From contig MEDZ01000020.1 in the NCBI GenBank assembly GCA_001724275.1, positions 1 through 64,000 of the forward strand: a DNA stretch of 64,000 nt, read 5' to 3'. The translations under genes and the position numbers were made by a program. Position 1 is the first letter of the stretch. Every line of letters begins with the position of its first letter. The notes beneath the pieces are model-generated. The model did no database searches, was not told where the DNA came from, and worked only from the letters and a program-made list of their open reading frames with translations. This DNA comes from Gemmatimonadetes bacterium SCN 70-22 (GTDB lineage: Bacteria > Gemmatimonadota > Gemmatimonadetes > Gemmatimonadales > Gemmatimonadaceae). Of this stretch, positions 4,913 through 49,885 are shown one piece after another.

Positions 4913-6106
4913 ATGCCTGCATTTACCTACACCGCGCGTGCCGCCAACGGCGAGCTGAAGACCGCGACCATCGAGGCGCCGTCGCGCGAGGACGTCGTCG
5001 CGCAACTCCGCCGGCAGCGCCTGTCGGTCGTCAAGGTCGACGAGGATGCGAAGCCCAAGAAGGCGAGGGGCTCCATCAAGATGCGTGACATCGTCATCTT
5101 CACGCGGCAGTTCTCGACGATGATCAACGCCGGCCTGCCGCTGGTGCAGGCACTGGACATCCTGGCGCGGCAGACCGAGAACAAGGTGCTGGCCGACGTC
5201 ACGCGCGCCGTGGTCTTCGACGTCGAGTCGGGGCACACGGTGGCCGACGCGCTGGCCAAGCACCCGAATGCGTTCAGCGAACTCTACGTGAACATGGTCG
5301 CCGCCGGCGAGGCGGGTGGTATCCTCGATACCATCCTGATGCGCCTGGCGACGTTCATGGAGAAGAACGACGCCCTGATCCGCAAGGTGAAGGGGGCGAT
5401 GATCTACCCCGGCGTCATCATGAGCGTGGCCGCCATCGCCATCACCGTCCTCCTCATCTTCGTCATCCCCGTCTTCGAGTCGATGTTCGCCTCGGTGGGG
5501 CTCCCGCTCCCGCTCCCCACGCGGGTCGTGATCGGGATGTCGCAGTTCCTCAAGGGGTATTGGTGGGCCATCATCATGGCCATCGGCGGCATCGCCTTCC
5601 TCGGCAAGCGCTATTACGCCACCTCGAGCGGCAAGCTGACCATCGACCGGGCGATGCTGCGCTTCCCCGTGCTCGGCGACGTGCTGCGCAAATCGGCCGT
5701 GTCGCGCTTCACCCGGACGTTGGGGACGCTGATCTCGTCGGGCGTCAGCATTCTCGACGGTCTGGAGATCACCGCCAAGACGGCGGGGAACCGGGTGATC
5801 CAGGACGCCATCATGCAGTCGCGCGCCTCGATCGCCGGCGGCGACACCATCGCCGCCCCGCTGCAGAAGTCGGCCGTCTTCCCGCCGATGGTGATCTCGA
5901 TGATCGCGGTCGGCGAGCAGACGGGCGGTCTGGACGAGATGCTGAGCAAGATCGCGGACTTCTATGACGAGGAAGTGGACGCGGCGGTGAGCGGGTTGTT
6001 GGCGCTCCTGGAGCCGGTGATGATCGTGTTCCTGGGGGTGGTGGTCGGCGGGATGGTGGTGGCGATGTACCTGCCGATCTTCGACATGATCAACGCGGTG
6101 CAGTAG
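4913..6106 (+). CDS. pilC: Type IV pilus inner-membrane platform protein PilC (GspF family)
   Basis: PilC is the polytopic platform that couples PilB/PilT to pilin movement. The 397-residue protein starts with the short MPAFTYTARAANGEL cap and has two GspF domains: VIFTRQFSTMINAGLPLVQAL at about residue 62 and VSRFTRTLGTLISSGVSILDGL at about residue 263. Membrane segments include VAAIAITVLLIFVIPVFE and the C-terminal IVFLGVVVGGMVVAMYLPIF. Length and domain order are normal. It is the last recognisable housekeeping gene before the accessory region. Confidence 0.95.
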   Translation: MPAFTYTARAANGELKTATIEAPSREDVVAQLRRQRLSVVKVDEDAKPKKARGSIKMRDIVIFTRQFSTMINAGLPLVQALDILARQTENKVLADVTRAVVFDVESGHTVADALAKHPNAFSELYVNMVAAGEAGGILDTILMRLATFMEKNDALIRKVKGAMIYPGVIMSVAAIAITVLLIFVIPVFESMFASVGLPLPLPTRVVIGMSQFLKGYWWAIIMAIGGIAFLGKRYYATSSGKLTIDRAMLRFPVLGDVLRKSAVSRFTRTLGTLISSGVSILDGLEITAKTAGNRVIQDAIMQSRASIAGGDTIAAPLQKSAVFPPMVISMIAVGEQTGGLDEMLSKIADFYDEEVDAAVSGLLALLEPVMIVFLGVVVGGMVVAMYLPIFDMINAVQ

Positions 6107-6596
6107 GAGAAGACGCAGGGGCGCACGCTCTTTTATCCGCGCGCGCACCTCAATGTCGTCCGGCGCGCACGTGAAACTTGTCCGCGTGCCGAATCAACGC
6201 CCGCGATGACGGGCTAGCCTGAAGTGGATGAACAACTTGCGCGGGGGATGGCGACGGTCGCCATCCCCCCGCTCGTGCCTTGGGTATCGCGAAAAGGGAC
6301 GGACGTTGCAGATGGAATTCGCTGCACGCGCTGGGCATCCTGCCAGGCCCGCGATGGCGCGCGGCCCGGGGCGGCGACTGCAAGTGGCGACAGAGCATTG
6401 AGATCGGCAGTCGCCCAATGGCGCCAGAGATTCCGCGCAGCGAATTCAATCCGTCGACGGTGGTGAAGACTCCCCGGCGAATTTCGTCCGCTGGCGTCAG
6501 GACAGTTTCGCCAAGCACTGTCCCATCACGGGCCCGCGACCCATACGGGACGGTGTGTGAGCGGGCAAGGACGTCCCGCGTCTCGCGGACATCAAC
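6107..6596. other. Intergenic junction between pil genes and accessory DNA; no gene seen
   Basis: About 490 bases separate pilC from the leftward AAA ATPase gene. Short open frames exist on both strands (for example 6150-6518 minus), but none shows a recognisable domain or a convincing start. The base composition is more mixed than in the pil genes. This is the likely left junction of the accessory region. No direct repeat, tRNA or integrase site was recognised. Confidence 0.5.
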
Positions 6597-10276: not shown

Positions 10277-11227
10277 TCAGCCTGTGCCTATGGCGCCACC
10301 AGACCGCGAGGCCGGAAGCACCGTGCGCAGACCGCGGGCGCGGAGCCGCTCGGCCAGCTCCGACCAGCGCATGGCCCGTCGCGTCACACGCTCGGCGTCG
10401 GACAGCTGCTCCGACGACGACGGAATGGGGACCGGGCCCAACGAGGCAACGCCCGCCCGTTCCCAGTTGGCCCAGGCGCGGCGCTCCGCCTCGGTGACGG
10501 CGCTCACGTGCACCTTGAACGGTTCCGACTTCCGCGAGGAGGTGTGCCGGTACTTGCCGGCGACCGATGCGGCGGCGAGGTGCGCAAGCCCCTGCGCGCG
10601 CAGGCGGGCGAGCGCGTGCGAGACCTGCGACGCCTCAGGCGCCACCTCCGAGCGCGCCTCGAACACGGCTCGTACCTCTGCCGCCGTGAAGAGCCGGTGC
10701 CGAGAGAGCACGCCGGTGATCGGCCGGAGCCCCTCCGGCAACGTCGCTCCCAGCGCGACAGCTCCATCCGGCCGTACGAGTACGAACGCCGGGCGCGAGG
10801 CCGCCGGCACGTCCAGCCATTCGGCCTCCCAAGCGCGCTCAAGCCGGAGCGCGAGGTCATCGAGGAGCGCGCGCGGGTCGGGAGGCGATGGCGCCGCCGA
10901 CGCTCCCGGGCGGAGCGGCGCACCGCGGCTGACGTGCGGCGACGTGGGCCCAGCGCACTCCACCACCAGCGTGACCCGTTCCGACAGCACCCCGGCCCGG
11001 CGCAAGAGCTCGAAAAAGCCGGCGTCGAAGAGGGCCGGCCCATAGGCGAGCTGCCACCGCAGGAGCACCCCCGTCTCTGGAGCGGGGTTCTCGGGAACCC
11101 TCGTCAAGTGCGCCAGCGCCTCCGGGGAGAGCGCGCCGACCCATCGCCGCCGCCCTGGCGTGGTCGGGCCAGATCCGGACCGGTCGAGGCTGACCTCGAT
11201 GGAGTGATAGCGCGCGATACGGAACAT
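10277..11227 (-). CDS. Hypothetical protein with a winged-helix-like segment
   Basis: From the ATG at 11227 the product is 316 residues. The N-terminal half (MFRIARYHSIEVSLDR to LLLRRAGVLSERVTLVVE) is unrecognised. Around residues 195-245 there is a helix-turn-helix-like stretch (FTAAEVRAVFEARSEVAP, then SQVSHALARLRAQGLAHL, then AGKYRHT). Its pattern resembles the winged-helix modules of the large proteins at 15460 and 32105. An upstream in-frame ATG at 11308 is less likely. It is divergent from the transposase gene at 11515 and converges on the truncated unit to its left. Function unknown. Confidence 0.6.
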   Translation of the reverse strand: MFRIARYHSIEVSLDRSGSGPTTPGRRRWVGALSPEALAHLTRVPENPAPETGVLLRWQLAYGPALFDAGFFELLRRAGVLSERVTLVVECAGPTSPHVSRGAPLRPGASAAPSPPDPRALLDDLALRLERAWEAEWLDVPAASRPAFVLVRPDGAVALGATLPEGLRPITGVLSRHRLFTAAEVRAVFEARSEVAPEASQVSHALARLRAQGLAHLAAASVAGKYRHTSSRKSEPFKVHVSAVTEAERRAWANWERAGVASLGPVPIPSSSEQLSDAERVTRRAMRWSELAERLRARGLRTVLPASRSGGAIGTG

Positions 11228-11514: not shown

Positions 11515-14079
11515 ATGACGTCCTCCATCACCTTCCCCCTCGTGCCTGTCGCTCCCCACACCGTGTCTCCGGTGACCGGGGAGTACATGCGCGTCCTCGC
11601 CATCCTGGATGCAGCCGGGGCCGAACTGTCGCGTGTCGCCGGGATCGCCAACGCGCGCGGACTGCTCGATGCCACGTACATGTCGACGATCCTCCAGCAC
11701 GTGCTCAAGGCGTCGTCGTCGACACACCACCGGACGGCCCGGCGCGGGAGCGCGACGGCGGAGTCGCCGCTCGGCTGGGACGATGCGCGTGCCGTCCAGG
11801 ACGCGCGCCAGCGCACCGCGCGATGTCTCGCGGAGTTGATGAGGATTCAGGGCCTGCTCGACGCCGCGGGCGTCTCGTACGACGTCGCGCCGGCGCCCGC
11901 GTCAACCCTGCCGGCTCCTGCTCCGGCATCGGCGGCAGCGGTGGCGGTAAAGCGCGGCCCTGGTCGGCCCCGGAAGGCTCGCCTTGAAGACAAGTCGAGC
12001 GACGTGCCTGTCGCGCCGGCGCATCCGTTCGCCGCGGACCTGGGCATGGCCGTTGCCGCGGCGTCGGTCCGTCCCGAGGCCGCCCTGACGCCGGTGCCTG
12101 GTGGACACGAGCGCTGGGCGTTGGTCGAGGGCGAATCGTCCCACAAGTACCCGGTACTCGGGGCGCTCACCGGCTACCGCGAGGGCAAGTCGCCGAAGCG
12201 CCTGCAGGACGCCTTCGTGCGTGAGCGGCTCCTCATGCCGCTGCTGCAGAAGCTGCAGCATCCCACGCACCCGCGTCCGGTGACTGCCGACGAGCTCGCG
12301 CAGGGGTGGCGCGACCTCATTGCGGGGAGGGGGACCCAGCTCGGAATTACCGCAGAGGGGCTCGACTCCGACGCGTGCGATCGCTACTCCGCCATCGCGG
12401 GTCGCACGCTTCGCTACTGGCGCAAGATGGTCCTCGCTGCCCACGCGGAGGACCGGGCGCAGAATCGTCCACCGCGTCCCGCGCGTGAGGTCCTTGAGCA
12501 CGAGTACCCCGCGCGCCGCGGCGCCCCCGAGCGCGAGGAGCGCGAGAAGGCGCTCCGCGAGAAGATCATCGAGTTGCTGGACGACCGGCAGCGGACGCCG
12601 AAGTGGCGGCTCTCCGGGGCACAGGTGGCGCAGAAGCTCAGCGACCAAGGCGTCCAGGTCTCCGCACGCAAGGTGCAACAAATCATCCAGAGCCTCGGCG
12701 ATCGGTTCCGGGCCGAGCTGCGGGGCGACGAGGAGAGCTGCAGAGCGCTCTTCTCAGTCCATCCGCTCCGCGAGGTACAGCATGCGAACGAAGAGTGGGT
12801 CATGGACAACTCCTGGCTGCGCTTCTCAACGCTCTCGGCGGAGGAGCGTCTGGTGCAGCTGGAAGACCCGGATCTGCCGAAGTCCGACTACGCGGAGGAC
12901 TTCCAGCTCGACTTTCTCGAGGTGCATACGAACGAGTTCGGAGACGTCCGATGGGAGCGCTCCGACGGCTGCTACCTCACGGTGATCCTCGACGCGTGCA
13001 CGCGGCGCGTGCTGGCGCTCCGGCTCTGGTCGAAACCAGTCGGTGCCCGGGAGATGCTGCTCGTCCTGCGCGAGGCCATGATGCGGTTCGGCCGCCCGGA
13101 CCGGCTCTATACCGATAACGGCAGCGAGTTCCGGAACAAGGCGCTCAGGGAGGCGCTGCACTTCGCTGGCATCGCGCACGTCTTCTCCAAGCCGTACAAC
13201 CCCCGGGGGCGCGGCAAGGTGGAGCGCGTATTCCGCACCATCAAGGCGCTCATCCAGGGTGCGGGCCTTCCGGGCTTCTATGGTGGCGAGTTGGGAGGCA
13301 TGCGCGCCCCGCTCGAGACGCTGCTGCCGCTGAGCGAGGTGCAGAAGATGGTCTGGGACCTCGTGGACCGGTTGATCAACAGGCAGGTGCACGGCACCAC
13401 CAAGCGGCGCCCGCAGGAGCACTACGACGAGGCGATCCGGCAGCGGTATGCCATCACGCACCTCGACATCGGTGTCGGCGCCGATGTGGTGATGCCGCTG
13501 ATGCTGCACTGCCAGGTCAAGCGCCAGGACCACGGCATCAGCGTCAACGGTCACCATTACTACGGGCCCGGACTCGAGGAGATCATGCTGAAGCGCACGG
13601 TCTGGATCGCGTACGATCCCTGGCTGTGGCAGGTGGTCTACTTCCAGCGCCCTGACGACGCCGACAAGGGCAAGCTGGTCTTCCACGGCGTGGCCGACTG
13701 GTACGATGCCAAGAATCCGCCGCCGGTACTGCGCGAGCGGATGGAGGCCCGGGCGCAGTACCGCCTGGAGCAGGAAGCCAGACGTACGGAGCGCGCTCAC
13801 GCTGCCGACAGGGCAGCCCGCCGGGGAAAGGCCCGCGCCACCGCGCGGATGATCGCTACGGAGATGGCGGTCGCTGGAGCGGCGTCGGGCCTCGAGAGTC
13901 CGCCGCCCGTACTCGGCGCGGGCGACGCGCCCTCCGTCGGCATGCTCCCCAGCGGAGACACCGGGGCCGACGCCACCTCTCCCGCGGCACCGACGCCCCC
14001 GCAGCCGAATAACGCGTTGAACTCTGCTCCCGAGGTGTCGACGCGCCCGGTGTATCGCTCGCCCTTCGACGAGGACTAG
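11515..14079 (+). CDS. TnsB/TniA-like DDE transposase (Mu/Tn7-type integrase core)
   Basis: This is a DNA strand-transfer enzyme of the retroviral-integrase superfamily. The 854-residue product has an AT-hook-like GRPRK near residue 145, helix-turn-helix-type DNA-binding segments (about 250-420), and an RNase H-like core. Catalytic residues are D466 (FQLDFLEVH), D534 (YTDNGSEF) and E570 (GKVERVF), with 35 residues between D534 and E570, the canonical DD35E spacing. A Mu-type beta-barrel and a basic tail follow. The ATG at 11515 is chosen over 11296 because the extra residues lie in the divergent intergenic region. An ATPase gene follows 64 bases on, as in Tn7/Tn5053 modules. The triad is intact, so catalysis is expected. 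Confidence 0.85.
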   Translation: MTSSITFPLVPVAPHTVSPVTGEYMRVLAILDAAGAELSRVAGIANARGLLDATYMSTILQHVLKASSSTHHRTARRGSATAESPLGWDDARAVQDARQRTARCLAELMRIQGLLDAAGVSYDVAPAPASTLPAPAPASAAAVAVKRGPGRPRKARLEDKSSDVPVAPAHPFAADLGMAVAAASVRPEAALTPVPGGHERWALVEGESSHKYPVLGALTGYREGKSPKRLQDAFVRERLLMPLLQKLQHPTHPRPVTADELAQGWRDLIAGRGTQLGITAEGLDSDACDRYSAIAGRTLRYWRKMVLAAHAEDRAQNRPPRPAREVLEHEYPARRGAPEREEREKALREKIIELLDDRQRTPKWRLSGAQVAQKLSDQGVQVSARKVQQIIQSLGDRFRAELRGDEESCRALFSVHPLREVQHANEEWVMDNSWLRFSTLSAEERLVQLEDPDLPKSDYAEDFQLDFLEVHTNEFGDVRWERSDGCYLTVILDACTRRVLALRLWSKPVGAREMLLVLREAMMRFGRPDRLYTDNGSEFRNKALREALHFAGIAHVFSKPYNPRGRGKVERVFRTIKALIQGAGLPGFYGGELGGMRAPLETLLPLSEVQKMVWDLVDRLINRQVHGTTKRRPQEHYDEAIRQRYAITHLDIGVGADVVMPLMLHCQVKRQDHGISVNGHHYYGPGLEEIMLKRTVWIAYDPWLWQVVYFQRPDDADKGKLVFHGVADWYDAKNPPPVLRERMEARAQYRLEQEARRTERAHAADRAARRGKARATARMIATEMAVAGAASGLESPPPVLGAGDAPSVGMLPSGDTGADATSPAAPTPPQPNNALNSAPEVSTRPVYRSPFDED

Positions 14080-14143
14080 GGTCGCATCCCGCCGTCCGAG
14101 AGAAGCCACGCATCATATCCGTCCACCACACCGAGTCACACCG

Positions 14144-15451
14144 ATGTCCCAGAACCTCGACAACGCCCCGCACTCGCAGGCGATGCTCGCCCTCATCACC
14201 GGCGCCCCCATGCCGCCCCTCTCCGCGCCGGTGGAGGGCGAGCGGCCGCGCGCGAAGGGGATCGCGCCCGCGAGCCGCGGACGGCGCAGCATGCCCACGG
14301 CCAACGAAGCCCTGCGGCCGCAGCACACCGCGACGGGCATCGAGGGCATCTCCTCGCAGCTCCATCGGGGTAAGAGCGCCCTCGCGCCGGGGCGGGTGAC
14401 CCAGCGAGATGTCCTGCATTTCTACCCTGAGTCGCGGTTCAAGGGACTGGTGGGGATGATGCGCCAGACGGTGGCGGACCGGCGTCGGCTGTTCGTGCAC
14501 GGCCGCCAACTCGCCGTCGGCGTGTCGACGTTCCTGCACGACTACGCCAACACCTTCAACTTCGAGGCGGTGATGACCGGGCGCCCCGAGCGGTTGCTCT
14601 ACGTCGCCGTGCCCTACGGGACCTCGTCTCCGCGAGGGTTCCTGGACACCCTGGCCAACGCGGCGCGTGCCTCGCTCTCGACGTCCGAGGTGAGCAAGCG
14701 GGCGACGGACCGCCTGCTCTCGCAGTGCCTCGTCGCGATGCGCTCGATGGGCGTCGTGGGCCTCATCATCGACCACGTGCACCACCTCGAGAAGAAGGCG
14801 ATGCCCTTCGTGGCCGAGTTCCTGCGCGCCACCGATGCGACCGCGAGCCACGTGCCGCTGGAGTACGACGAGTTCAACGCTGCGCCGCCGCGCATGGCGG
14901 TCATTCTCGCGAGCCACATCGCCCCCACGCATCTGTTCCGGTCCCTGCCGCACGTGCGGAGCGCCATGAGCGGCAGCTATCTCAGCTTGGACAAGTACAA
15001 GAAGGTTGAGGCATGTGCTGAGGCGGTCCGTCGAGCGGGCGTGGGCCTCGAGGATCTGGAGCTCTCTATCTCAGACGACCGAGAGCTGGTGGTCCGCCTA
15101 CTGGAGGTGACCGACGGCCTCCCGGGTCCGATGAGCGAGGTGCTCTCGCGACTCGACGCCTTCGCGCAGTTCAACGGCGTCCGGCCCGATCTCACCATGC
15201 TGGAGCTGGTCCTCGAGACCTACACCTCCTTCCTCACGGGTAGGGGAGACGACGACGAACACGGAGAAGACGGGGCGCCCGCTGGAGCGACTCCGGTCAC
15301 CACGAAGAATGGCCCCGCCGCCGGCAGCCAGGTGCTCGACGATGCGGGGACGCCGAGGAGCAGCGACGCCGCGCAGCAGCTCAAGCGGATGAAGTACGAC
15401 AACCTGCAGACCAGCCAGCTGCACAAGGCGCTGCTGAGAAGCGGCGCGTAG
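14144..15451 (+). CDS. TnsC/TniB-like AAA protein with degenerate Walker motifs
   Basis: Position and pattern match the transposition regulator ATPase TniB/TnsC. The segment LLYVAVPYGTSSPRGFLDTL corresponds to the TniB VLYVQ.P....... F block and precedes a Walker B-like VGLIIDHVHHL. The P-loop region reads GRQLAVGVST (G120-T129), with Val127 where Lys is expected, and Walker B has D210 followed by His211 instead of Glu. Thus the residues that bind phosphate and activate water both appear lost. The reading frame is intact at 435 residues with a low-complexity tail, so this is not simple decay. It probably still contacts the transposase or DNA, but ATP hydrolysis is doubtful. Confidence 0.7.
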   Translation: MSQNLDNAPHSQAMLALITGAPMPPLSAPVEGERPRAKGIAPASRGRRSMPTANEALRPQHTATGIEGISSQLHRGKSALAPGRVTQRDVLHFYPESRFKGLVGMMRQTVADRRRLFVHGRQLAVGVSTFLHDYANTFNFEAVMTGRPERLLYVAVPYGTSSPRGFLDTLANAARASLSTSEVSKRATDRLLSQCLVAMRSMGVVGLIIDHVHHLEKKAMPFVAEFLRATDATASHVPLEYDEFNAAPPRMAVILASHIAPTHLFRSLPHVRSAMSGSYLSLDKYKKVEACAEAVRRAGVGLEDLELSISDDRELVVRLLEVTDGLPGPMSEVLSRLDAFAQFNGVRPDLTMLELVLETYTSFLTGRGDDDEHGEDGAPAGATPVTTKNGPAAGSQVLDDAGTPRSSDAAQQLKRMKYDNLQTSQLHKALLRSGA

Positions 15452-15459
15452 CCGACCGG

Positions 15460-17457
15460 GTGCGTTCTCGCCGGCGTGCTGACTCGCCAAGGCCGCTGGG
15501 ACGCCTCGACGCAACGGTTGAGGCGGTCCGGCGGGCAGCGTCGCGCGCCCGGGGCGCGGTGACCTTCGAGCGCGTGCGGGCCACGCTGCGAGCGGCACCC
15601 GACCTCGCGCCGCTCGAGCCGTCAAATCTGTCCAACAGCTTGGCGCACCTGATCCGCCATGGTCGCGTCGTGGTGATCACGCGTCGTAACAAGAGTCGGG
15701 AGCGCCGGGGGCGGAACTACTACACCCTTCCAGGGCTCCGACGCGAGGTAGCACGCGACGAGCAGCGCGTGCTCGATGTCGTCCTTGACGTCGCGAGGAC
15801 GCTGTCGAGGCGGTCGGGGGCGCGTCCCTTCACGACCACCGCCCTGCGCCGGTTCGGCTGTTCGCGCCTGAAGGCCGAGGGCAAGCTGCCCCGAACCTTC
15901 TGGGCCAATGCCGTACTCGCACTCGAGTCGAGAGGCGACCTACATCGGGCGCGGGTGCTGCGACACGGAGCCAGTGTGCGCGTCTGGTGGTGCGTCGTGC
16001 CGCCCCCGGGCGCGGCGCACGAATTCACCCGGGACGGGCCGGGCAGCGATGGACGCTCCGCACCCACGACGCTCGCGACCTGCGCGCCCAAGCGCCTTCT
16101 CTCGCATCGCGGTCCGGACGTCGACTTCGTGAGCCGCAGCTCCGACGTGCGAACGCTGGTCCTCGCGGCGAAGGCACGTGCCGCTACGCGGGGAGCGTCC
16201 GAGAGGGAGCGCGCCGCGCTCGAGGCGCGTCCAGTGGACTTCGCGCAGATCTGGGCAGCGCGTTCCGACTGTCCGGGCCTTGGGCCCCGAAGTCGGCGTG
16301 CCCTCGCAGATGCGCTGCATGCCCTATCGCGGCCCTCCGACGCGGCGCGTCCGGGCGACCTGGTGCGCCTGACGTCGCTCGGCGGCCCGGTTTGGTACGA
16401 TCTCGCCTCCCACTCCTCAGGAGACGACGGGATCCCTCGTCGGGGGCGGGAGGGCGCCGACTGGTTCGTTCGGTTCATCGAGGCTTGCGAGGCGGCCGCG
16501 GAGCCTTGGCTGTCGCGCGTGCGGCGGGAGCTCCTCGCGGCGAGACTGCTGCCTGACACGGTTCCATCAGTCGTCGTCAATGCCAGAGCCGCGCAACTTG
16601 CACTTGACCTGAAGATCCGGGCGCGTGATCTGGATGATGCAATCGCCCGGACGTGGCTCCTCCCGGCTGAGCGCGACCGGGCCCGCGATCTTCTGGCGGG
16701 CCTCGAGCGTGCCCAGAGGCTGGTGCTCCCGGAAGGACACCTCGCTCCATCGGTTGGCAGTCTACCGGCCAGGGCGACCGATGGGCTGCTGCTCGACCTG
16801 AGCGACGCCTACCGTCAGCTCGAGGCGCTCGGCGTCATGTCCTTGTCATCGCCCCGTGCCCTCAGGTCACGGCTGCCGACGGTCCGCGTCGTTCGCGTGC
16901 CCGCGTCAAGTTCGGCGGGTCGGGCTCGCATCTTCCTCGACCGGGTGGATTTCGCTTGCTACTGCCTCGGCGCGTACGCGCCAGGGACGTCCCGTCTGGC
17001 GCCATGGGCGCGTAGGGGCCGGCTGGTGCTGGGGGCGCTGCGGGATGCCGAGCTCCTCATCCATGCCCTCAGCCGCGTCGATGACGGCGTGCCCGCCACC
17101 GGTGGGACCCTGCCCGGCGTGTTGGCCGCGCTGGGCCTGCTCGATGACACGCTGTCGCGTGATGCGCTGGTGTCGTTCCTCGAAGGGGCGATGACGACAC
17201 TCGCGCGGGCCAGGGGCAGTCGCGCGGCTACGACGCGGCGTCCGGCACCTGCTGCGTTCGAGGCGGCCGTCATCGGGCTGGCTCGACGCCCCGTAGGTAC
17301 ACTAGCCACAGAGCTTCGGCCCGCCGAGTACATGGCCCTCCGGTCGCTCGAGGTTCTCGCGAGGGCCGACGGCCACTCCGACCTCGCTGCACTGGTGAAC
17401 CGTGTGCGCGCCGGCTGGGCTGCGGAGACTGCTCCCCGGGAACTCATGATGCTCTAA
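15460..17457 (+). CDS. Multi-winged-helix protein, third gene of the transposition triad
   Basis: The GTG start lies 8 bases after the AAA gene, so the two are co-transcribed. The 665-residue product begins with two winged-helix-like modules. The first (about residues 20-95) ends RGRNYYTL, and the second (about 100-180) contains RPFTTTALRRFG and WANAVLALESRGDLHRARV. The rest is helical and ends in a conserved-looking block (IGLARRPVGTLATEL). It is clearly related to the larger protein at 32105-34732. It has no TniQ/TnsD zinc-finger signature. By position it could be a target selector, but this is inference. Confidence 0.65.
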   Translation: MRSRRRADSPRPLGRLDATVEAVRRAASRARGAVTFERVRATLRAAPDLAPLEPSNLSNSLAHLIRHGRVVVITRRNKSRERRGRNYYTLPGLRREVARDEQRVLDVVLDVARTLSRRSGARPFTTTALRRFGCSRLKAEGKLPRTFWANAVLALESRGDLHRARVLRHGASVRVWWCVVPPPGAAHEFTRDGPGSDGRSAPTTLATCAPKRLLSHRGPDVDFVSRSSDVRTLVLAAKARAATRGASERERAALEARPVDFAQIWAARSDCPGLGPRSRRALADALHALSRPSDAARPGDLVRLTSLGGPVWYDLASHSSGDDGIPRRGREGADWFVRFIEACEAAAEPWLSRVRRELLAARLLPDTVPSVVVNARAAQLALDLKIRARDLDDAIARTWLLPAERDRARDLLAGLERAQRLVLPEGHLAPSVGSLPARATDGLLLDLSDAYRQLEALGVMSLSSPRALRSRLPTVRVVRVPASSSAGRARIFLDRVDFACYCLGAYAPGTSRLAPWARRGRLVLGALRDAELLIHALSRVDDGVPATGGTLPGVLAALGLLDDTLSRDALVSFLEGAMTTLARARGSRAATTRRPAPAAFEAAVIGLARRPVGTLATELRPAEYMALRSLEVLARADGHSDLAALVNRVRAGWAAETAPRELMML

Positions 17458-17720: not shown

Positions 17721-18743
17721 CTACTTCGAGCGCTCTGAACGCCGCGTTCTGAGCAGTCGCAGCTCGACAGCGGCATAGGACAAGAGCACCAGCGCGCCTG
17801 CGACGGCCTGCGCCGTCACCGTCTCAACGTTCGGTGAGACGCCGAACCAGAGCCCCATCCAGCCCGGCAGCACCCGCTCGAGCGCCGGGATCGGGGTGGT
17901 CGACAGCCAGTGCGCGAGCTGCATCTCCTGCGCTTGCTCGCCCACCATCACGAGGAGCACGACGCCGAGCAGCAGCCCCGTGGCGATCAACATCTTCTTG
18001 TAGGGCAGCTTTCGATGGGCGAGGAAGGTGAGTACCGCGACGACCGCAGTCAGCCCCGTACCGAGCAGCACCCCGTACAGAACCGGCACGCCGCCGAGGC
18101 GAAGTCGGTAATGCTGCAGGAAGAGAACGACCTCGAAACCCTCGCGGTAGAAGGAGCTGAACCCGAGGAGCCCCATGCCCCAGAGGAGGCGTGCTCGAGA
18201 CGTTTCGGGGTCACCTGCCGCTGTGAGCAGCCGTCGCTTGCGAGTCGTGTGCATCGAGATCCAGCCCGACCAGTAGACGCTGTGGAAGAACCAGTTCATC
18301 ACCACGAGCAGTACCACGATGGCGACGAGCCCGGTGATCGCCTGGAGGTGCAGCGCCGAGACGTTGGTCAGGAGGCTGTCGAGGACTCGCACCGCCACCA
18401 CCCAGGTGAGCAACGTGGCCATGATTCCCGCGCCCACGCCCACCGTGACGGGCCGGCGATAGCGCGTCTTCGACCCGACCATTCCGGCCGTCACGGCAGC
18501 CAGCACCAGAATGGATTCGAGCCCCTCACGGAAGACGAGAACGGCGATGTCGACGACCTTGGCAGAGGCGCTCGTCTCAAGGGCCGTCGGGTCGGGTAGG
18601 CCGCCCGACACGATCGCCTGCCAGACGATCACGCCCGCAACTGCGAGCGCAGCGCCGGTCACAAGTACGGCCCCGAGCAGCCGGCGACGTGCGAAGCCAC
18701 GGCTCTCCGGCTCCGCGTGGCGCTGTTGGATGGGTGTGGGCAC
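17721..18743 (-). CDS. FTR1-family iron/metal permease
   Basis: FTR1 proteins are polytopic inner-membrane permeases, best known for iron, that use REGLE motifs. Here FREGLES lies at about residues 71-77 and a second variant, YREGFEV, at about 207-213. At least seven hydrophobic segments are visible, and the extra N-terminal segment (LLGAVLVTGAALAVAGVIVW) makes a normal total for the family. The 340-residue gene lies 124 bases downstream of czcA on the same strand and is probably the last gene of that operon. Iron or lead transport both occur in this family, and the czc context suggests a heavy-metal role. Confidence 0.85.
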   Translation of the reverse strand: MPTPIQQRHAEPESRGFARRRLLGAVLVTGAALAVAGVIVWQAIVSGGLPDPTALETSASAKVVDIAVLVFREGLESILVLAAVTAGMVGSKTRYRRPVTVGVGAGIMATLLTWVVAVRVLDSLLTNVSALHLQAITGLVAIVVLLVVMNWFFHSVYWSGWISMHTTRKRRLLTAAGDPETSRARLLWGMGLLGFSSFYREGFEVVLFLQHYRLRLGGVPVLYGVLLGTGLTAVVAVLTFLAHRKLPYKKMLIATGLLLGVVLLVMVGEQAQEMQLAHWLSTTPIPALERVLPGWMGLWFGVSPNVETVTAQAVAGALVLLSYAAVELRLLRTRRSERSK

Positions 18744-18867
18744 TGCGATGGGCGGTGGAGTGGTTATGTCACGTCGGTCAGCGACAGGTGGCCTCGAGGA
18801 GGCCGGAACGGGATGGTAGTCGGGAATTGCGGCGCAGCACGGCCGTGTTCATAGAGGGACCAAGCCG

Positions 18868-21800
18868 TCACACCGCCGAGTCGGCCGACCGCGTGGGCGA
18901 GGAAACTGGGACCAGGGACGGGGTACTGGCCGCCGTCCGTGCCGCACGGCGCAAGCGCCACCGCTCGACGGCACCGTAGAGCGTGGGCAGCACGAGCAGC
19001 GTGAGGAGCGTCGAGGTGACCAGCCCACCGATCACCACCGTCGCCAGCGGCCGCTGCACCTCAGCGCCGGTCCCGTGCGACAGCGCCACCGGGATGAAGC
19101 CGATCGACGCCACGAGAGCCGTCATCAGCACCGGGCGAAGGCGGGCGCGCGCCCCGTCCACGGCCGCGTCATCAACGCTCGAGCCCTCGGCGCGGAGCCG
19201 CTGCACCGTCGAGAGAAGAACGAGTCCGTTCAAGACCGCCACGCCAAAGAGCGCGATGAAGCCCACAGCGGCCGAGATGCTCAGGTGCAGCCCGCGCAGC
19301 AACAGGGCGAAGACGCCGCCCACCGCGGCGAACGGCAGGTTCACGAGGACGAGTCCCGCGAGCGGCCAGCTCCGGAGCGAGACGTAGAGCAGCAGCGCGA
19401 TCAGCGCGATCGAGAGCGGCACCACGAACCTGAGCCGTCCCATCGCGCGCTGCTGGTTCTCGAACTGGCCACCGTACGTGAGGAACACCCCCGGGGGGAG
19501 GCGCACCTCCTTCGCGATCTGTGCCTGCACGTCCGCCACGTAGCCCCCAAGGTCACGGCCGCGGACGTTCGCCTGCACGATGACCAAGCGCTGCGCCCGC
19601 TCGCGGCTGATCTGCACCGGGCCGGGCTCCATGCGGATGTCGGCGAGCTCCGCCAACGCCACGCGAGCGCCCGACGGCGAAGGCACGGTGATGCTGCCGA
19701 TACCCTCCGGCGTGTTGCGGTACTCGGGCGGCACGAGCACCGCGGCGTCGAGCGTGTACGTCCCCGCGCTCCCGTCGGTGATCGTCGCTACGGGTTCCCC
19801 GCCCACGGCGATGGCGAGCGCCTGTCGCACCTCTTCGACCGGGATGCCCTGGCGCGCCATCGCGTCGCGGTTCATGCGGACAGTGAGGTAGCCTTGGCCC
19901 GTCGTCGCCTCCACGAACACCTCGGCCGTGCCCGCGACCTTCCGGATCGCTGCCGCGACGCGCTCGGCCGTCTCGCGGTTCACGTCGGGGTCGTCGCCGA
20001 AGACCTTCACGGCGAGGTCGCTGCGCACGCCGGAGATGAGCTCGTCGAGCCGCATCTTCACGGGCTGCGTGAAGCCGAAGCCGACTCCCGGCACCTGCTC
20101 GTTGAGGTGGTGCTCGAGCTCCTCGATGATGTCCTGCTTGTCGAAGCCCCGGCGCCACTCGTCGCGCGGCTTGAGCATCACGAACACGTCGCTCTGGTTC
20201 GTGCCCATCGGGTCGCTCCCGACTTCGGCGCGCCCCATGCGACTGACGACGGTCGTGACCTCAGGCGTCTGCTTGACGACCCGCTCGATCTCGCGGTGCA
20301 CGTCGCCCGCGTACGACAGCGAGATGCTGGGGTCCTTCGTCGCCTGGAGGAGGATCGAGCCCTCGTCGAGCTCCGGGAGGAACTCGGTGCCGAGCCGCGG
20401 CACGAGCAGCATGCTGGCGGCGAAGAGCGCGACCGCCGCGCCGACCACCACCGCCGGCCGCCGCATGGTCCCGCGCAGCAGCCGCGCGTACCGGTGGTCG
20501 AGCCAGTGCTCGAGGGCCACCGCGTACCGCGCCTCGCGGGCGCCGCCGCGGAAGAGCCACGTGGCCGCCGCCGGCACCGCCACGAGCGCGAGGAGCAGGC
20601 TGCCGAAGAGCGCGACGGCGACGGTGATCGCCATCGGCCGGAACATGCGCCCTTCGAGCCCCTCGAGCGTCATGATCGGCACGTAGACGAGCATGATGAT
20701 GAGCACGCCGAAGACGATCGGGCGGCCCACCTCGCGCGCCGCCGCGACGATGCGCGCCGTGGATTCCTCACGCGAGAGTACGCGGGGCATCGCCGGTGCG
20801 GCCTCGGCGTCCGCGCTCTCGTGTGGGTGCGCCTCGTGCACCGGGTCGGGGTGCAGCTTGCGGATGAAGTTCTCCGCCATCACGACAGCCCCGTCGACGA
20901 TCATCCCGAAGTCGATGGCGCCGAGGCTCATGAGGTTGGCGGACAGGCCGAGCCAGCGCATGCCCACGAAGGCGAACAGCAGCGACAGCGGAATCGTGGC
21001 GGCGACGAGGAGCGCTGCGCGGACGTTGCCGAGGAAGAGCAGCAGCACCGCGATGACGAGGAAGCCGCCCTCGAGCAGGTTGCGCTCGACCGTGGTGAGC
21101 GTGCCCTCGACGAGGTCCGTCTGGTCGTAGTACGGCGCCAGGACCAGTCCCGGCGGGAGCGAGTGATTGATCGCCGCGACGCGCTCGCGCACGCGCCGCA
21201 CGACGTCGCGGCTGTTCGCGCCGCGCAGCATCATCACGATGCCGCTCATCACCTCGCCCCGCGCGTCCCGCGACACTGCGCCCTGCCGCAGCTCGGGGCC
21301 GTAGCGCACGTCGGCCACGTCGCCGACGAGCACGGGCACGCCGCCGCGCGAGCGAATCACGGAGCGGCGAATGTCGTCGAGGCTCGCCGCCTGCCCGAGC
21401 CCGCGGAGGATGTACTGCTCCGTCTCGTGCTCGACGTACGCCCCGGCCGGTACCTGGCTGTTCGCCTCGACGGCTTCGACGACGTCGCCGATCGAGAGGC
21501 CGTAGCTCGCAAGCTTGTCGGGCGACACGACGACCTGCGCCTGGCGCACGAAGCCGCCGAACGTGTTGATTTCGACGACGCCGGGGACGCCTCGCAGCTG
21601 CGGCCGCACGACTCGGTCGTGCAGCGTCCGGAGCGCCATGAGGGCGCTGTCGCTGTGCGCGGCGGCGCCGTGGAGGGTGTCCTCGAGGGTGTAGAGGTAT
21701 ATCTCGCTCGTCGCACCCGCCATCGGGCCGAGCGTAGCCTCCGCGCCTTTCGGCAGCTGATCGCGGATCGACTGCAGCCGCTCGTTCACCAGGGTGCGCG

Positions 21801-22116
21801 CGAAGTAGATGTCGGTGCCGTCCTCGAAGACGACCGTGACCTGCGAGAAGCCGTACTTCGAGATGGAGCGGACCTCCTCGACGTGGGCCACGCCGTTCAC
21901 GGCCACCTCGATCGGGAAGGTCACGAGGCGTTCCACCTCGATCGGCGAGAGGCCGGGCGCCTCCGCGAGCACGGCCACCTGCACGTTCGTCAGATCGGGG
22001 AACGCATCGACGCGGAGCGTGCGAAATGCCCACACGCCGCCGGCGACCAGCGCGAGCACCCCCAGGACGACGAGAACGCGGGCACGCACGGCCCACGCGA
22101 CGAGCATGTCGATCAT
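18868..22116 (-). CDS. czcA: CzcA-type heavy-metal efflux RND transporter (first copy)
   Basis: This is the inner-membrane proton-driven pump of a tripartite cation efflux complex. The 1082-residue length and 12-helix layout are normal. It opens MIDMLVAWAVRARVLVVLG and has the porter motif VDAFPDLTNVQVAVLAEAPGLSP. The transmembrane-4 signature DFGMIVDGAVVMAEN is characteristic of the heavy-metal subfamily and carries the proton-relay Asp residues. The start at 22116 is preferred to the upstream frame start at 22206, which would overlap czcB. It is 7 bases after czcB. Substrate (Zn, Co, Cd, Ni) cannot be fixed by eye. Confidence 0.93.
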   Translation of the reverse strand: MIDMLVAWAVRARVLVVLGVLALVAGGVWAFRTLRVDAFPDLTNVQVAVLAEAPGLSPIEVERLVTFPIEVAVNGVAHVEEVRSISKYGFSQVTVVFEDGTDIYFARTLVNERLQSIRDQLPKGAEATLGPMAGATSEIYLYTLEDTLHGAAAHSDSALMALRTLHDRVVRPQLRGVPGVVEINTFGGFVRQAQVVVSPDKLASYGLSIGDVVEAVEANSQVPAGAYVEHETEQYILRGLGQAASLDDIRRSVIRSRGGVPVLVGDVADVRYGPELRQGAVSRDARGEVMSGIVMMLRGANSRDVVRRVRERVAAINHSLPPGLVLAPYYDQTDLVEGTLTTVERNLLEGGFLVIAVLLLFLGNVRAALLVAATIPLSLLFAFVGMRWLGLSANLMSLGAIDFGMIVDGAVVMAENFIRKLHPDPVHEAHPHESADAEAAPAMPRVLSREESTARIVAAAREVGRPIVFGVLIIMLVYVPIMTLEGLEGRMFRPMAITVAVALFGSLLLALVAVPAAATWLFRGGAREARYAVALEHWLDHRYARLLRGTMRRPAVVVGAAVALFAASMLLVPRLGTEFLPELDEGSILLQATKDPSISLSYAGDVHREIERVVKQTPEVTTVVSRMGRAEVGSDPMGTNQSDVFVMLKPRDEWRRGFDKQDIIEELEHHLNEQVPGVGFGFTQPVKMRLDELISGVRSDLAVKVFGDDPDVNRETAERVAAAIRKVAGTAEVFVEATTGQGYLTVRMNRDAMARQGIPVEEVRQALAIAVGGEPVATITDGSAGTYTLDAAVLVPPEYRNTPEGIGSITVPSPSGARVALAELADIRMEPGPVQISRERAQRLVIVQANVRGRDLGGYVADVQAQIAKEVRLPPGVFLTYGGQFENQQRAMGRLRFVVPLSIALIALLLYVSLRSWPLAGLVLVNLPFAAVGGVFALLLRGLHLSISAAVGFIALFGVAVLNGLVLLSTVQRLRAEGSSVDDAAVDGARARLRPVLMTALVASIGFIPVALSHGTGAEVQRPLATVVIGGLVTSTLLTLLVLPTLYGAVERWRLRRAARTAASTPSLVPVSSPTRSADSAV

Positions 22117-22123
22117 GGCAGTC

Positions 22124-23371
22124 TCAGTCCACGTCCTTGAGCGACGCCTTGGCGAGCTCGGACTTGAGGGTGAAGGCCCCGCGTACCACCAAACGGTCGT
22201 CTGCACCGAGCCCGCTCACCACGGCGACGCGCCCACCCGCGGGCCCCGCGCCGGCCAGCCCTGGGGCGAGCTCCACGGCCCGCCGCTCATAGGTGCGGGG
22301 GCCCACTTCGACGAACACGTACCGATCGGGCCCGTCGGTCACGATCGCGCTCGAAGGGACGGTGAGCGACTGCACGGTCGTGGCCCCACCACCCCGAAGC
22401 TGCACCGTGGCGAACATCCCGGGCTTGAGCGACCTTCCCGTATTCGCCACCGAGATGAGCGCCTTCGCGGTGCGGCGCTCGGGATCGAGCACGTCGCTCA
22501 CGCGCGTGACGCGGCCCACGAAGGGCGCCTGCGGAGCGCCGGCCGCGAGGATCGAGGCGCCCTGGCCAACGTGCACCGCGGGGAGCGCGCGCTCCGGCAC
22601 GTCGGCGGCGACGTTGACGACGGAGAGGTCGGCGATCTTGTAGAGTGGTGTCCCCGCCTCGACCGCCTGGCCCGCGAGCGCGCTCGCCTCCACGATGCTC
22701 CCGGCGAACGGCGCCGGGATCCGAAGCAGCGCCTCGGGGACCCCGCCCGACTCGAGCCGTCTGATGGCGGTCTCGCTCGCGCCCAGCAGCACGAGGCGGC
22801 GCCGGGCCGCGTCGAGCAGGGCCTGCGCGCCCTCGGCGTCCGCGGTGCCACGGAGCAGCACGAGGCGCCGCTGCGCCTGCAAGACATCGTTCTGCGCCGT
22901 CGCGTACGCGGGGCTCTGCACGAGTGCTACGACCTGCCCCGCACCCACCCGGTCGCCCGGCACCGCGAGCAGGCGCTCGAGTCGTCCGCCGGTCCGCGGC
23001 GACACGTAGGCGACGCGGGCGGGGTCGAACTCCACCTGCCCCGGCACCTGGAGCCCGCCGCCGGCGGCGCTCAGGGCCTCCGACCGCGGAGCCTCGACGA
23101 GGATGCCCGCCGTGCGGAACGCGACCTCGCCGAGCGTCACTCGCGCGGCGCTCTCCTTCGCCCCTTCACCCGCCTTGGCATCGCCGGCCTCCCGCTTCTC
23201 GCCGGTCTCGGCTCCGACGGTCGCTGCGACCGCCGCACCTGCGCTCTTGGTCTCCTCGTGCCGTGTGGTGGGCTTCTCCTCGTTCCTCCCCGAGCACGCG
23301 GTGGCGAGGATGAGGGCAACGGCGAGGACGACGGCGGGTCGGCAGCGCGGCCGGCTGATGGGCTCGGGCAT
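22124..23371 (-). CDS. czcB: CzcB-type periplasmic adaptor, lipoprotein (first copy)
   Basis: This is the membrane-fusion protein that links CzcA to the outer-membrane channel. From the ATG at 23371 it has a lipoprotein signal with lipobox LATACSG. A charged Lys/Glu-rich linker follows, then the barrel-sandwich/lipoyl halves (GGRLERLLAVPGDRVGAGQVV and FAGSIVEASALAGQAVEAG) flanking a coiled hairpin. The C-terminal beta-barrel includes LKPGMFATVQLRGG. Its length of 415 residues is typical. An ATG at 23395 is also in frame but overlaps czcC. The lipid anchor fits the Lgt-like gene in the divergent operon. It belongs to the czcCBA operon. Confidence 0.9.
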   Translation of the reverse strand: MPEPISRPRCRPAVVLAVALILATACSGRNEEKPTTRHEETKSAGAAVAATVGAETGEKREAGDAKAGEGAKESAARVTLGEVAFRTAGILVEAPRSEALSAAGGGLQVPGQVEFDPARVAYVSPRTGGRLERLLAVPGDRVGAGQVVALVQSPAYATAQNDVLQAQRRLVLLRGTADAEGAQALLDAARRRLVLLGASETAIRRLESGGVPEALLRIPAPFAGSIVEASALAGQAVEAGTPLYKIADLSVVNVAADVPERALPAVHVGQGASILAAGAPQAPFVGRVTRVSDVLDPERRTAKALISVANTGRSLKPGMFATVQLRGGGATTVQSLTVPSSAIVTDGPDRYVFVEVGPRTYERRAVELAPGLAGAGPAGGRVAVVSGLGADDRLVVRGAFTLKSELAKASLKDVD

Positions 23372-23384
23372 CGGGGCGTGGGTG

Positions 23385-24785
23385 TCAGCGATCATCGGCG
23401 ACCCGGCCAGCGCCGGACTCCGTCGTGAAGGTGGCGGTAGCGGCGGACGAGGGCGCGCCGGACAGGAGATCAGCCAGGGCCGAGAGCGCGTCGAGAGACG
23501 CGCGCGTGCGCTCGATCTCGGCGCGTGAGAGCGCCCGCTCGAAGTCGAGAAGGTCGAGCAGGGAGATGTCCGACGTGCGATACGCGGCGAGCGCGCTCTC
23601 GCGCTCCTCGCGCGCCGCACGCAGAAGCGTGGCGTCGAATGAGGCCGCGCGACGACGCGCCGCTTCGTAGCGCGCACGGGCCGCTGCGAGCGCAGAGCGA
23701 ACGCTGAGCGCCGCGGCCTGGCGCGCGGTGCTCGCGACGACGGTCTGTTGGTCCGCGGCGGCAAGGGCCGCGCGATTGGCGCCGCTGGCGGTGAAGGGCA
23801 GGGTGACGCCCAGCGACAGAACGGGCCCGATCCCGGGCCCGGTGTCGCCCTCTGGGCCGATGCGCTGCACGCCCGCTGACGCGGAGAACGCAGGACGCTG
23901 CTGCGTCAGCAGGAGTCGGCGCTGGGCCGCAGCCTGCGCGACCCGTGCGTCCGCGAGCCGTACGTCGGCCGCGGTGGCGATGAGCGCCTCGATCGACGGC
24001 GCCTCGGGCAGTCGCGATGCGACGGTCAGCAGGGCGCCGAGGCCCGCTGCGCTGCTGCCAAGGGAATCGACCGCGGACGTCGCGACGCGAACCGCTGCGG
24101 AGTCGCCACCGGCGAGACCCACGAGCGTGATCGCGGCCGTCTCGATCTCGGTCTCGGCCGTCGCGCGGTCGCTCTGCACGCGGAGTCGCTCCGTCCGCAG
24201 CCGGAGGACGTCGATGTACCGCGCCTCGCCGACGGTGAAGCGCGCACGCACCGACGCCTCGGCAGACGCGAGTAGCGAGTCCTGTGCTGCCAGGCGCCGG
24301 ACGATCGCACGCCAGCCGGCGGCGGCGTAGAGCGCGCGCGCCACCTCGGCGAGCGTCCGCCGCTCGCTGGCCGCGAGCGCGACTCGCGCCGTCTGTACCT
24401 CCGCCTCCCCGACCGCTCGCTCGCCGCGCCGACGGGCCGCGGAGAGGAAGTCCCGCGAGACCTCCAGGCGCGTGTTGCCGCGGTCGAGACGGCCGCTTCG
24501 CGCTCCCTCCGCCTCCAGCATGAGTGCGGCTTGTGGCGAGAAGCCAAGCGCATCTCGCCGCGCCTCCGCCGCGACGACCTCGGCCCGGCGGAGGGCGAGC
24601 TCCGGAGATGCCGCGAGGACCGCCGTGCGTAAGGATGCTGGGAGCAGAAAGGCGAGCAACGAGTCTGCGGCGCCAGTGGGCGCCGCAGGCACCGGGGTAG
24701 ACGGTGTCGCCGGTGCTTGAGCCGAGGCAGACTGGCTGACCAACGTCAGGAGCGCCGCGAGAGCGGCGGAGGAGGGGAGTCGCAT
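23385..24785 (-). CDS. czcC: CzcC-type outer-membrane efflux channel (first copy)
   Basis: This is a TolC-family outer-membrane factor. The 466-residue protein begins with a clear signal peptide (LAALLTLVSQSASAQA). It contains the two long helical repeats of the family, with alanine-rich coiled segments such as ALRRAEVVAAEARRDALG and the paired motif YRTSDISLLDLLDFERAL near the C-terminus. It is the first czc gene in transcription order. A small membrane or periplasmic gene lies upstream and czcB starts 13 bases after its stop. Confidence 0.9.
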   Translation of the reverse strand: MRLPSSAALAALLTLVSQSASAQAPATPSTPVPAAPTGAADSLLAFLLPASLRTAVLAASPELALRRAEVVAAEARRDALGFSPQAALMLEAEGARSGRLDRGNTRLEVSRDFLSAARRRGERAVGEAEVQTARVALAASERRTLAEVARALYAAAGWRAIVRRLAAQDSLLASAEASVRARFTVGEARYIDVLRLRTERLRVQSDRATAETEIETAAITLVGLAGGDSAAVRVATSAVDSLGSSAAGLGALLTVASRLPEAPSIEALIATAADVRLADARVAQAAAQRRLLLTQQRPAFSASAGVQRIGPEGDTGPGIGPVLSLGVTLPFTASGANRAALAAADQQTVVASTARQAAALSVRSALAAARARYEAARRRAASFDATLLRAAREERESALAAYRTSDISLLDLLDFERALSRAEIERTRASLDALSALADLLSGAPSSAATATFTTESGAGRVADDR

Positions 24786-24966
24786 GTACGTGTGCGGGAG
24801 GCCAAGAGCGGAGCAGCGTTGGACCGGACGACCCGCCGACGCGTCGGGCGGACGGCGGTCTTGTTCCCCGGACGTGCGGGTCCGCTCGCGACATGCGCGT
24901 GCGGACCGGCTGGCTCAGGACGCCGACGCTCGAGGCGCCGATCATCGGCCGAGTCCCGGGGGGCGA

Positions 24967-25446
24967 TCAGCCCGCGACCGCGACCGGCGGGCGGAGCTCG
25001 CGCTCGAGAGTGGGACTCGGCGGGATGATGCCGTCCACTCCGACGGGGCGCGTCGTGGTCGTGCCGACGACGCAAAGGGCCAACGTTGGCGGGCACGTCA
25101 GCGCGACGGCATGGGTGCACGAGCACGGCGCGTGGCTCGACGCCGGAGCCGGTCCGGGCGGATTCGGCACGCGCGCCGGAACGGCCTCACGGGAGACGCG
25201 GTTCACGGCGACGGTTCCGGCCGGGTGCCTCTGCGTCGCGGGAGCCACTGCCTCTGTCCTCGCGTGCGCGGCCGCGCCGATCGCGACACTAGCCCCCTCT
25301 ACCGCCGGCTCGGCGCACGCGACGCCCATCACCATCAGGAGCATCATGGCCACCATTCGCCGGCTCGCGCGGAGCCGGTGCAAGGGGGACTGGACGCCTG
25401 TGAGGGTCGAGGGACGGGTCACGGGATCGCGAGGAAGCGCGGGCAC
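24967..25446 (-). CDS. Small exported Cys/His-containing protein at the head of the czc operon
   Basis: The 159-residue product has a hydrophobic N-terminal segment (MVAMMLLMVMGVAC, about residues 31-44) that could be a lipoprotein signal. It also has a cluster of possible metal ligands (SHAPCSCTHAV and TCPPTLALC). No family is recognised. It starts at the divergent metal-operator region and is followed, after 181 bases, by czcC. Small periplasmic proteins are common ahead of czc genes, and a metal-binding accessory role is inferred. A shorter form starting at residue 31 is possible. A different small exported protein occupies the same place in the second czc operon. Confidence 0.55.
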   Translation of the reverse strand: MPALPRDPVTRPSTLTGVQSPLHRLRASRRMVAMMLLMVMGVACAEPAVEGASVAIGAAAHARTEAVAPATQRHPAGTVAVNRVSREAVPARVPNPPGPAPASSHAPCSCTHAVALTCPPTLALCVVGTTTTRPVGVDGIIPPSPTLERELRPPVAVAG

Positions 25447-25477
25447 GGTTGCGTCGGCGCCGCGGCATTGGTACGAT

Positions 25478-25497
25478 ACCTGAACACCTGCTCAGGT
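25478..25497. promoter_or_regulatory. ArsR/SmtB-type operator ACCTGA-N8-TCAGGT in the divergent metal promoter
   Basis: The inverted repeat ACCTGAACACCTGCTCAGGT resembles the TGAAC...TTCA sites of SmtB/CadC-type repressors. A plausible plus-strand promoter (TTGCGT near 25449, 17 bases, then TACGAT at 25472-25477) directly abuts it. It lies between the leftward czc operon and the rightward arsR operon, so one repressor could control both. Confidence 0.6.
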
Positions 25498-25512
25498 AAT
25501 CAGGAACGTACG

Positions 25513-26001
25513 ATGCCGCCCTCGACTCCGCAATCCCGCCGCTCCGCCAAGCCCCACGCCCGTCCCGGCCGCGCCGACGCCGCGGTGCCCTCGCGGCCGG
25601 GACGACGGTCGACTTCGCTGTCGAAGCCGATCGCCGACCGCTCGGACCTCTGCGAGGTGCAGGTCGTCGACGCCGACAAGATCGCTCGTGCGCGCACGTC
25701 GCTACCGATTCCAGGGACGCTCACGGCGCTCTCGGAGATACTGCGGGCCCTCGGCGACCCGACGCGGCTGCAGATCGTGTGCGCGCTCGCGACCGAAGGC
25801 GTCGACGAGCTCTGCGTCTGCGACCTCGCGACGCTCGTCGGCGTGTCCGACTCAGCGGTCTCGCACTCGCTACGCACGCTCCGCCAGCTCGGCGTCGTGC
25901 GGTACCGCAAGGCAGGAAAGATCGCCTATTACACGCTCGACGACGCGCACGTCGGTGAGATGGTGCGCGAGGGGATCCGCCACCTCGAGAACGACCGCTA
26001 G
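25513..26001 (+). CDS. ArsR/SmtB-family metal-sensing repressor
   Basis: From the ATG at 25513 (AGGAA just upstream) the protein is 162 residues. A basic, low-complexity N-terminal tail precedes the winged helix LSEILRALGDPTRLQIVCAL, then the recognition-helix region VSDSAVSHSLRTLRQLGVV. Likely metal ligands are the Cys pair in ELCVCDLA on the helix alpha3 position and the N-terminal DLCEVQVVDADK, a pattern seen in CadC/CmtR-like Cd/Pb/Zn sensors. It is the first gene of an operon with a P1B ATPase and an Lgt-like gene, and its probable operator is immediately upstream. Confidence 0.9.
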   Translation: MPPSTPQSRRSAKPHARPGRADAAVPSRPGRRSTSLSKPIADRSDLCEVQVVDADKIARARTSLPIPGTLTALSEILRALGDPTRLQIVCALATEGVDELCVCDLATLVGVSDSAVSHSLRTLRQLGVVRYRKAGKIAYYTLDDAHVGEMVREGIRHLENDR

Positions 26002-26052
26002 CAATCGCCAGGTGCTGCGAGCGGTGGATCGAACCAGATCAGGAGGACGGTC

Positions 26053-31846: not shown

Positions 31847-32104
31847 CCCCTGACGCCGTGAGCGGTTTCGCATCGTGAAGTCCCGGGCGCGCCTCCGGCG
31901 AATGGCCCATGCCGAATCCCGGGTCGCCGCGGGGCCGGCGGGCGATCGGCGGTGGGGCGAGGTGGGGCGTGTGGTTGCCCTCGGAGCGCACGACCCGGCC
32001 TTGGCGGCTCTCGGGGCGGCGTTTGGGGCAGGGCTGCAGCGCAGACTATGGTGGAGGATCGCCCCGCTTCCAGCGGAAATCCTCCCCAGAGTCGGTGCAG
32101 TCGC

Positions 32105-41471: not shown

Positions 41472-41473
41472 CC

Positions 41474-42714: not shown

Positions 42715-42738
42715 CCGCCACCGCTGACAGAGTCACCC

Positions 42739-46656: not shown

Positions 46657-46868
46657 GAACCGGATCTGCCCGGGAGTGCTGTACTCTCCGCTCGCCTCTG
46701 CTGGCGGCCATGTCGGGTCGCAGGCACTCTCCCTCGTGTAGGTGGACCGAGCGCTCGTGGTGGCCGTAAGTGGTTGTCCTACAACGGGTGGACAATATTC
46801 GCTGCGCCTCCCTGAACTTCTGCGGATAGAATCCCCTGCGCGCGCGGATAAAATCGGACGTGGGTAAC

Positions 46869-46904
46869 AGAAGACGAGAGGACGAGAAGACGGGAAGACG
46901 AGAG
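46869..46904. repeat. GA-rich short tandem repeat (AAGACGGG/AGAGGACG units)
   Basis: Degenerate units of AAGACGAG/AAGACGGG repeat about four times directly before a strong hairpin. They resemble the AGACGGG units between the pil genes, so a dispersed intergenic repeat family is possible. Confidence 0.45.
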
Positions 46905-49882: not shown

Positions 49883-49885
49883 GGG

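Follow-up and report, generated by a model that had tools for sequence, protein, structure and literature searches.

A Tn7-like element downstream of pilC in Gemmatimonadota, with a TnsC-fold protein lacking its Walker lysine and glutamate and a proposed winged-helix/HEAT target selector

The 64,000-nucleotide window analysed here opens with the genes pilB-pilT-pilC, the last of which encodes a T2SSF-type inner membrane protein (4913-6106, plus strand; Pfam T2SSF, E 1.2e-65). Between the pilC stop codon and the pilC terminator lies an element of 40.8 kb (about 6115-46869). Its left end (6115-6200, plus strand) carries the terminal inverted repeat core TTTTATCCGCGCGCGCA (6131-6147) together with further end-type repeats, and this 17-bp core has an exact inverted match at 46837-46853, within the inverted repeats of the right end (46784-46869, minus strand), which finishes in ...GGGTAACA. 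The 6-bp direct repeat GAAGAC flanks the element at 6109-6114 and 46870-46875 and is probably a target-site duplication, at a repetitive site (AGAAGACG) that leaves the exact length of the repeat uncertain. A hairpin at 46905-46930 corresponds to sequence found immediately downstream of pilC in the nearest genome, G001 (L054); it is the terminator of pilC itself, displaced beyond the right end of the element. We delimit the element in this way because its 17-bp ends are inverted, the sequence to its right matches G001, and GAAGAC is present at both ends. In G001, whose pilC is 95% identical, the site is empty, which is a sign of recent movement. Another hairpin, GGGGGATGGCGACGGTCGCCATCCCCC (6243-6269), lies just inside the left end and is probably an element-borne terminator. 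Equivalent hairpins follow pilC in three relatives, G071 (L059), G320 (L067), and G382 (L065), and this terminator-like structure inside the pilC-side end apparently stands in for the displaced one.

The cargo includes a metal-related block (17721-28230), in which Pfam recognised, on the minus strand, an FTR1-like gene (17721-18743), an RND pump (18868-22206), an HlyD-type adaptor (22124-23764), and an OEP gene (23385-24785) and, on the plus strand, an ArsR-type regulator (24784-26001) and a heavy-metal P-type ATPase (26053-28230). Pfam and PADLOC further identified a CBASS-type pair on the minus strand (36176-38694), composed of a DncV-like cyclase (36176-37444) and a SAVED-HNH effector (37366-38694). 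Near this pair, and likewise inside the element, is a ubiquitin-like conjugation cluster (41190-45530, plus strand) with DUF2604, Metal_CEHH, BilC/JAB, an E2-ThiF fusion, and NYN; a MerC-like mercury transporter is encoded at 45931-46479 (minus strand). TnsA had no Pfam match in the element ORFs tested, a set that took in some of the small ORFs; TnsA is absent from many Tn7-like elements. Beyond the element, positions 48569-59137 hold a HipA-like kinase, type III restriction-modification genes, and an IS3-type transposase and make up another island, past the terminator of pilC.

The transposition genes form a triad on the plus strand, with products of 854 (11515-14079), 435 (14144-15451), and 665 (15460-17457) amino acids; the first frame is open from 11296. 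By codon-position G+C the three genes look real, and homologues exist for each. A preliminary description, made before the extent of the element, the pilC site, and the sister triads described below had come into view, placed the triad at the correct coordinates and in the correct frames. It read the genes as encoding a DDE transposase, a TnsC-like protein, and a third protein that is not TniQ/TnsD, and this reading is supported by an rve match (E 2.1e-15), by profile and structure matches to the TnsC fold, and by the lack of a TniQ/TnsD Pfam match in the third gene and in the other element ORFs tested.

The first product is a TnsB/TniA-type DDE transposase according to this Pfam match, alignment, and tree. 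Its catalytic triad consists of D431 (in the motif VMDNSW), D534, and E570, all invariant in an alignment with six relatives. The preliminary description had correctly named D534 and E570 with their 35-residue spacing; its candidate for the first catalytic Asp, D466, is ruled out, as it is not conserved among the six relatives. Transposase copies from the six genomes of what we call the lost-motif clade form one group with a support of 100/100; how this clade branches relative to the sister clade and to further groups of TniA-like transposases is beyond the resolution of the tree. A query of 84,980 species genomes and, separately, of viral contigs with the transposase returned 48 distant loci, the viral contigs contributing distant transposases only, and a plasmid collection contained no relative. 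These loci served as a control for the neighbouring ATPase: in 36 of the 48 the gene directly 3' of the transposase encodes a GK[ST] P-loop, the remaining 12 being fragments, contig ends, or loci with no recognisable ATPase at that position.

The product of 14144-15451 is an AAA+ protein of the TnsC/TniB/MuB fold. Pfam gave only sub-threshold matches, to AAA_22 and TniB, and the relationship emerged from hhalign against TniB/TnsC-type ATPases (E 5e-7) and from a profile-profile comparison with the sister ATPases (E 2.8e-11). An AF2 model (mean pLDDT 67, with values above 85 for most of the core) found its best structural match in ShTnsC (Foldseek E 2.7e-9; VIA Z 20.0, rmsd 3.5 over 249 residues), followed by VchTnsC and MuB (Foldseek and VIA; best matches at Z 18-20). 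The P-loop region reads GRQLAVGVST and the Walker B region LIIDHVHHL, and both alignments set Val against the Walker A Lys and His against the Walker B Glu, exactly as the preliminary description had placed these substitutions. A functional Lys or Glu elsewhere in the protein was also sought, and neither a GxxxxGK[ST] nor an hhhDE motif was found; one isolated GKS, at residue 76, shows no conservation. In addition, where canonical and sister proteins share an invariant Arg in a joint alignment, none of the five full-length lost-motif members has one; judged from its expected position, this Arg is the putative arginine finger. Since Lys, Glu, and the residue that is probably the Arg finger are all missing, the protein is most likely unable to hydrolyse ATP, and it may have given up ATP binding as well.

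The same substitutions occur in the relatives. Overall identity to the four full-length ones (G071, G320, G310, and G261) is 24-29%. The position of the Walker A Lys is occupied by Val in the window protein and by Ala, Val, Ser, and Ala, respectively, in these four, and the Walker B Glu is replaced by His in all five, so that Asp-His is invariant; a truncated copy in G382 has Asp-His too. The changes are therefore clade-wide rather than sporadic across homologous triads, in a clade for which only five full-length members were found, mostly in draft assemblies. The ATPase motifs were probably lost once, a single loss being the simplest account because the six transposases form one group. Two weak ATPase matches were rejected as apparent chance hits: the frame in G307 encodes a MeaB-like protein with its own intact P-loop, and the locus in G184 encodes a DNA-ligase-like frame. 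G261, whose triad sits on contig C59, has a second, partial transposase of the same type at the end of its pilC contig (C68; L071, 4560-5576) and may hold two elements.

Conservation within the degenerate motifs raises an alternative, rather unlikely in our judgement, that nucleotide is bound in a non-canonical manner, with ATP acting as a structural cofactor that is turned over slowly or not at all. The Walker A Ser/Thr after the lost Lys persists in all five proteins, the Walker B Asp remains, and the core alignment has only 26 columns without variation, two of which are D210 and H211, so that the invariant His may take part. Against this stand the combined disappearance of Lys, Glu, and putative Arg finger and the free variation at the Lys position (V/A/V/S/A).

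Searches with the third gene recovered four sister triads in Gemmatimonadota (G352, G314, G032, and G244) with identical gene order, in all of which the ATPase keeps GKT and DE. Their third gene is homologous to that of the window (E 1.5e-18); the sister third-gene profile matched 90 genomes, most of them through the HEAT-repeat part only, and just four at full length. We tie the lost-motif clade to this sister clade because of the shared third gene and the shared site, not on the basis of the transposase tree.

The shared site is the 3' end of pilC, after whose stop codon the element ends come in the window and in relatives. The triad is on the pilC contig in the window, G320, G382, and G071 and in the sisters G314 and G032; the triads of G310 and G261 could not be linked to pilC by contig. 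In G314 and G032 the triad lies within inverted end repeats that start right after pilC, and such repeats bound elements of 16.4 kb (G314), 32 kb (G032), and, in the lost-motif clade, 61 kb (G071; end pair TGCTGAGCGACAC..., with a 6-bp GGGCGG repeat). No exact target-site duplication was seen in G314; for the G320 element no far end could be located, and that of the G382 element is unclear. In G244 the 12-bp end repeat that follows pilC is present again next to the triad, which lies on a different contig, and G352 also has end repeats after pilC. A shuffle test for tandem repeats right after pilC (p<=0.033) was passed by 7 of the 9 genomes with a triad and by 5 of the 25 other genomes (Fisher p 0.004), where the best triple of the window is partly G+C-driven and the 25 comparison genomes include three (G002, G282, and G430) with end-like repeats in which no triad was detected; G382 and G261 failed the test. 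Since the sister triads with intact Walker motifs are pilC-linked as well, pilC targeting is probably older than the loss of the ATPase motifs. End motifs vary between members of the lost-motif clade, which fits continued co-evolution of transposase and ends.

The region after pilC shows signs of other insertions in two genomes. A 10.7-kb segment directly after pilC in G002 (L055, 3221-13937) has inverted ends of about 50 bp and metabolic genes and lacks a transposase; it is a non-autonomous passenger at the pilC site. In G003 (L058, reverse strand), the pilC terminator region is present as an exact 35-bp direct repeat with copies 7 kb apart (about 3171-3205 and 10349-10383) and end-like repeats in between; this may be the trace of an old insertion by which the site was duplicated.

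Homologues of the third gene (15460-17457) were found in all full-length relatives and in the sister triads. VIA matches of the AF2 model of its product predict tandem winged helices (residues about 13-90 and 98-180) and a HEAT-like C terminus (HEAT/armadillo repeats, 521-659), and TniQ/TnsD chains, to which it may yet be remotely related, are not among the best structural matches. From co-occurrence and predicted fold, we consider this protein a likely target selector. It could instead be cargo or a regulator, in which case the transposase or the TnsC-fold protein would recognise pilC. HEAT repeats serve as protein-binding modules in general, and the element carries a second, lone homologue (31952-34732, plus strand; 926 aa, 28% identity by alignment), which would suit such a role. 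Yet the third gene belongs to the gene set of both branches, both at pilC, and its product has predicted tandem winged helices, and we regard the cargo explanation as unlikely. The 926-aa homologue has more N-terminal repeats and a layout nearer to the G071 and G320 proteins; no transposase or ATPase gene adjoins it and no clear element ends were found around it, and it is maybe a remnant of another element or a second selector.

Taken together, we favour, at a probability of roughly two in three, a mobile, site-specific Tn7-like element whose TnsC protein would act as an adaptor independent of ATP hydrolysis; the reading of the triad as a rewired transposition system, offered by the preliminary description, is likely to hold. 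In the mechanism we envisage, the winged helices of the third protein would bind the conserved 3' part of pilC, the TnsC-fold protein, as a constitutive adaptor without an ATP cycle, would link the third protein to the TnsB-type transposase, and the transposase would join the element ends just past the pilC stop codon. Fidelity would come from the selector and the single attachment site. Loss of the motifs was probably a single event that followed the rise of pilC targeting and did not end mobility. We are more tentative, at somewhat short of even odds, about the wider proposition of a pilC-targeting Tn7-like branch that combines a nucleotide-independent TnsC-fold adaptor with a new winged-helix/HEAT selector class and descends from an ATP-dependent ancestor at the same site.

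Two further explanations concern mobility itself. The element could be moved by an intact TnsC that a different element supplies within the cell, the degenerate protein having become a regulator, such as an inhibitor or an immunity factor. Action in trans is made plausible by the non-autonomous element at the same site in G002; we nevertheless hold this scenario to be improbable, as a sister-type ATPase was not found in the six lost-motif-clade genomes, in a search run without a positive control, and as the degenerate gene occupies the exact position of the intact gene in the sister triads. Least credible is a relic triad, in decay or exapted, with an island that was placed or is held by other means and has stopped transposing: the truncated G382 copy and the transposase-less element in G002 would fit, but open frames, invariant DDE residues, delimited ends with 6-bp repeats in the window and G071, the empty site in the nearest genome, the conserved attachment site, and clade-wide persistence at 24-29% identity speak against it and against the exapted module, no longer transposing in the usual way, that the preliminary description had entertained.

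The element resembles Tn7 and Tn7-like elements in its TnsB-type DDE transposase and TnsC-fold partner, its insertion just downstream of a conserved gene, the repeated inverted transposase sites in its ends (window, G071, G314, and G032), and its large metal and defence cargo. It differs in that no TniQ/TnsD is detected by Pfam, a winged-helix/HEAT protein being in the selector position, in that the site is pilC, and in the TnsC-fold protein without Lys and Glu; moreover, Tn7 and Tn7-like elements produce a 5-bp target-site duplication, whereas the direct repeats here (window and G071) are of 6 bp. No pilC attachment site was found in the open-access literature searched, including two surveys of Tn7-like elements. 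IS21 (IstA/IstB) and phage Mu (MuA/MuB) likewise pair a DDE transposase with an AAA+ activator but have no dedicated site-selector gene and intact AAA+ sites.

The need of TnsC-type proteins for ATP turnover in targeting, immunity, and disassembly is an open question, and ATPase mutants differ by system (PMC11406308, PMC11208146). Mutation of the Walker B Glu renders Tn7 hyperactive and cripples other systems (PMC11406308), IstB ATPase mutants retain partial activity, and a lack of hydrolysis often goes together with lost target immunity (PMC11208146). A partial natural precedent is provided by type V-K CAST, some of whose TnsC proteins are reported to have no Walker B Glu or no typical Walker A (PMC11406308). 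In contrast to those systems, no Cas effector was seen here, the clade-wide loss takes in both motifs as well as the putative Arg finger, and an intact sister clade uses the same site. One survey of TnsC dropped sequences with gaps at Walker positions (PMC10293859), so that such proteins could be under-counted. The two branches described here form a matched natural pair, homologous triads at one site of which one is motif-intact and the other is not, and would thereby make it possible to test the contribution of the ATP cycle directly.

The closest parallel to the proposed selector is Tn6022, a Tn7-like element in which TnsF, a selector not based on TniQ, recognises the conserved gene comM (PMC10293859). 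TnsF derives from a tyrosine recombinase, unlike the winged-helix/HEAT candidate at pilC; if the third protein is indeed a selector, protein-guided targeting gains a further class that does not depend on TniQ and has pilC as its site.
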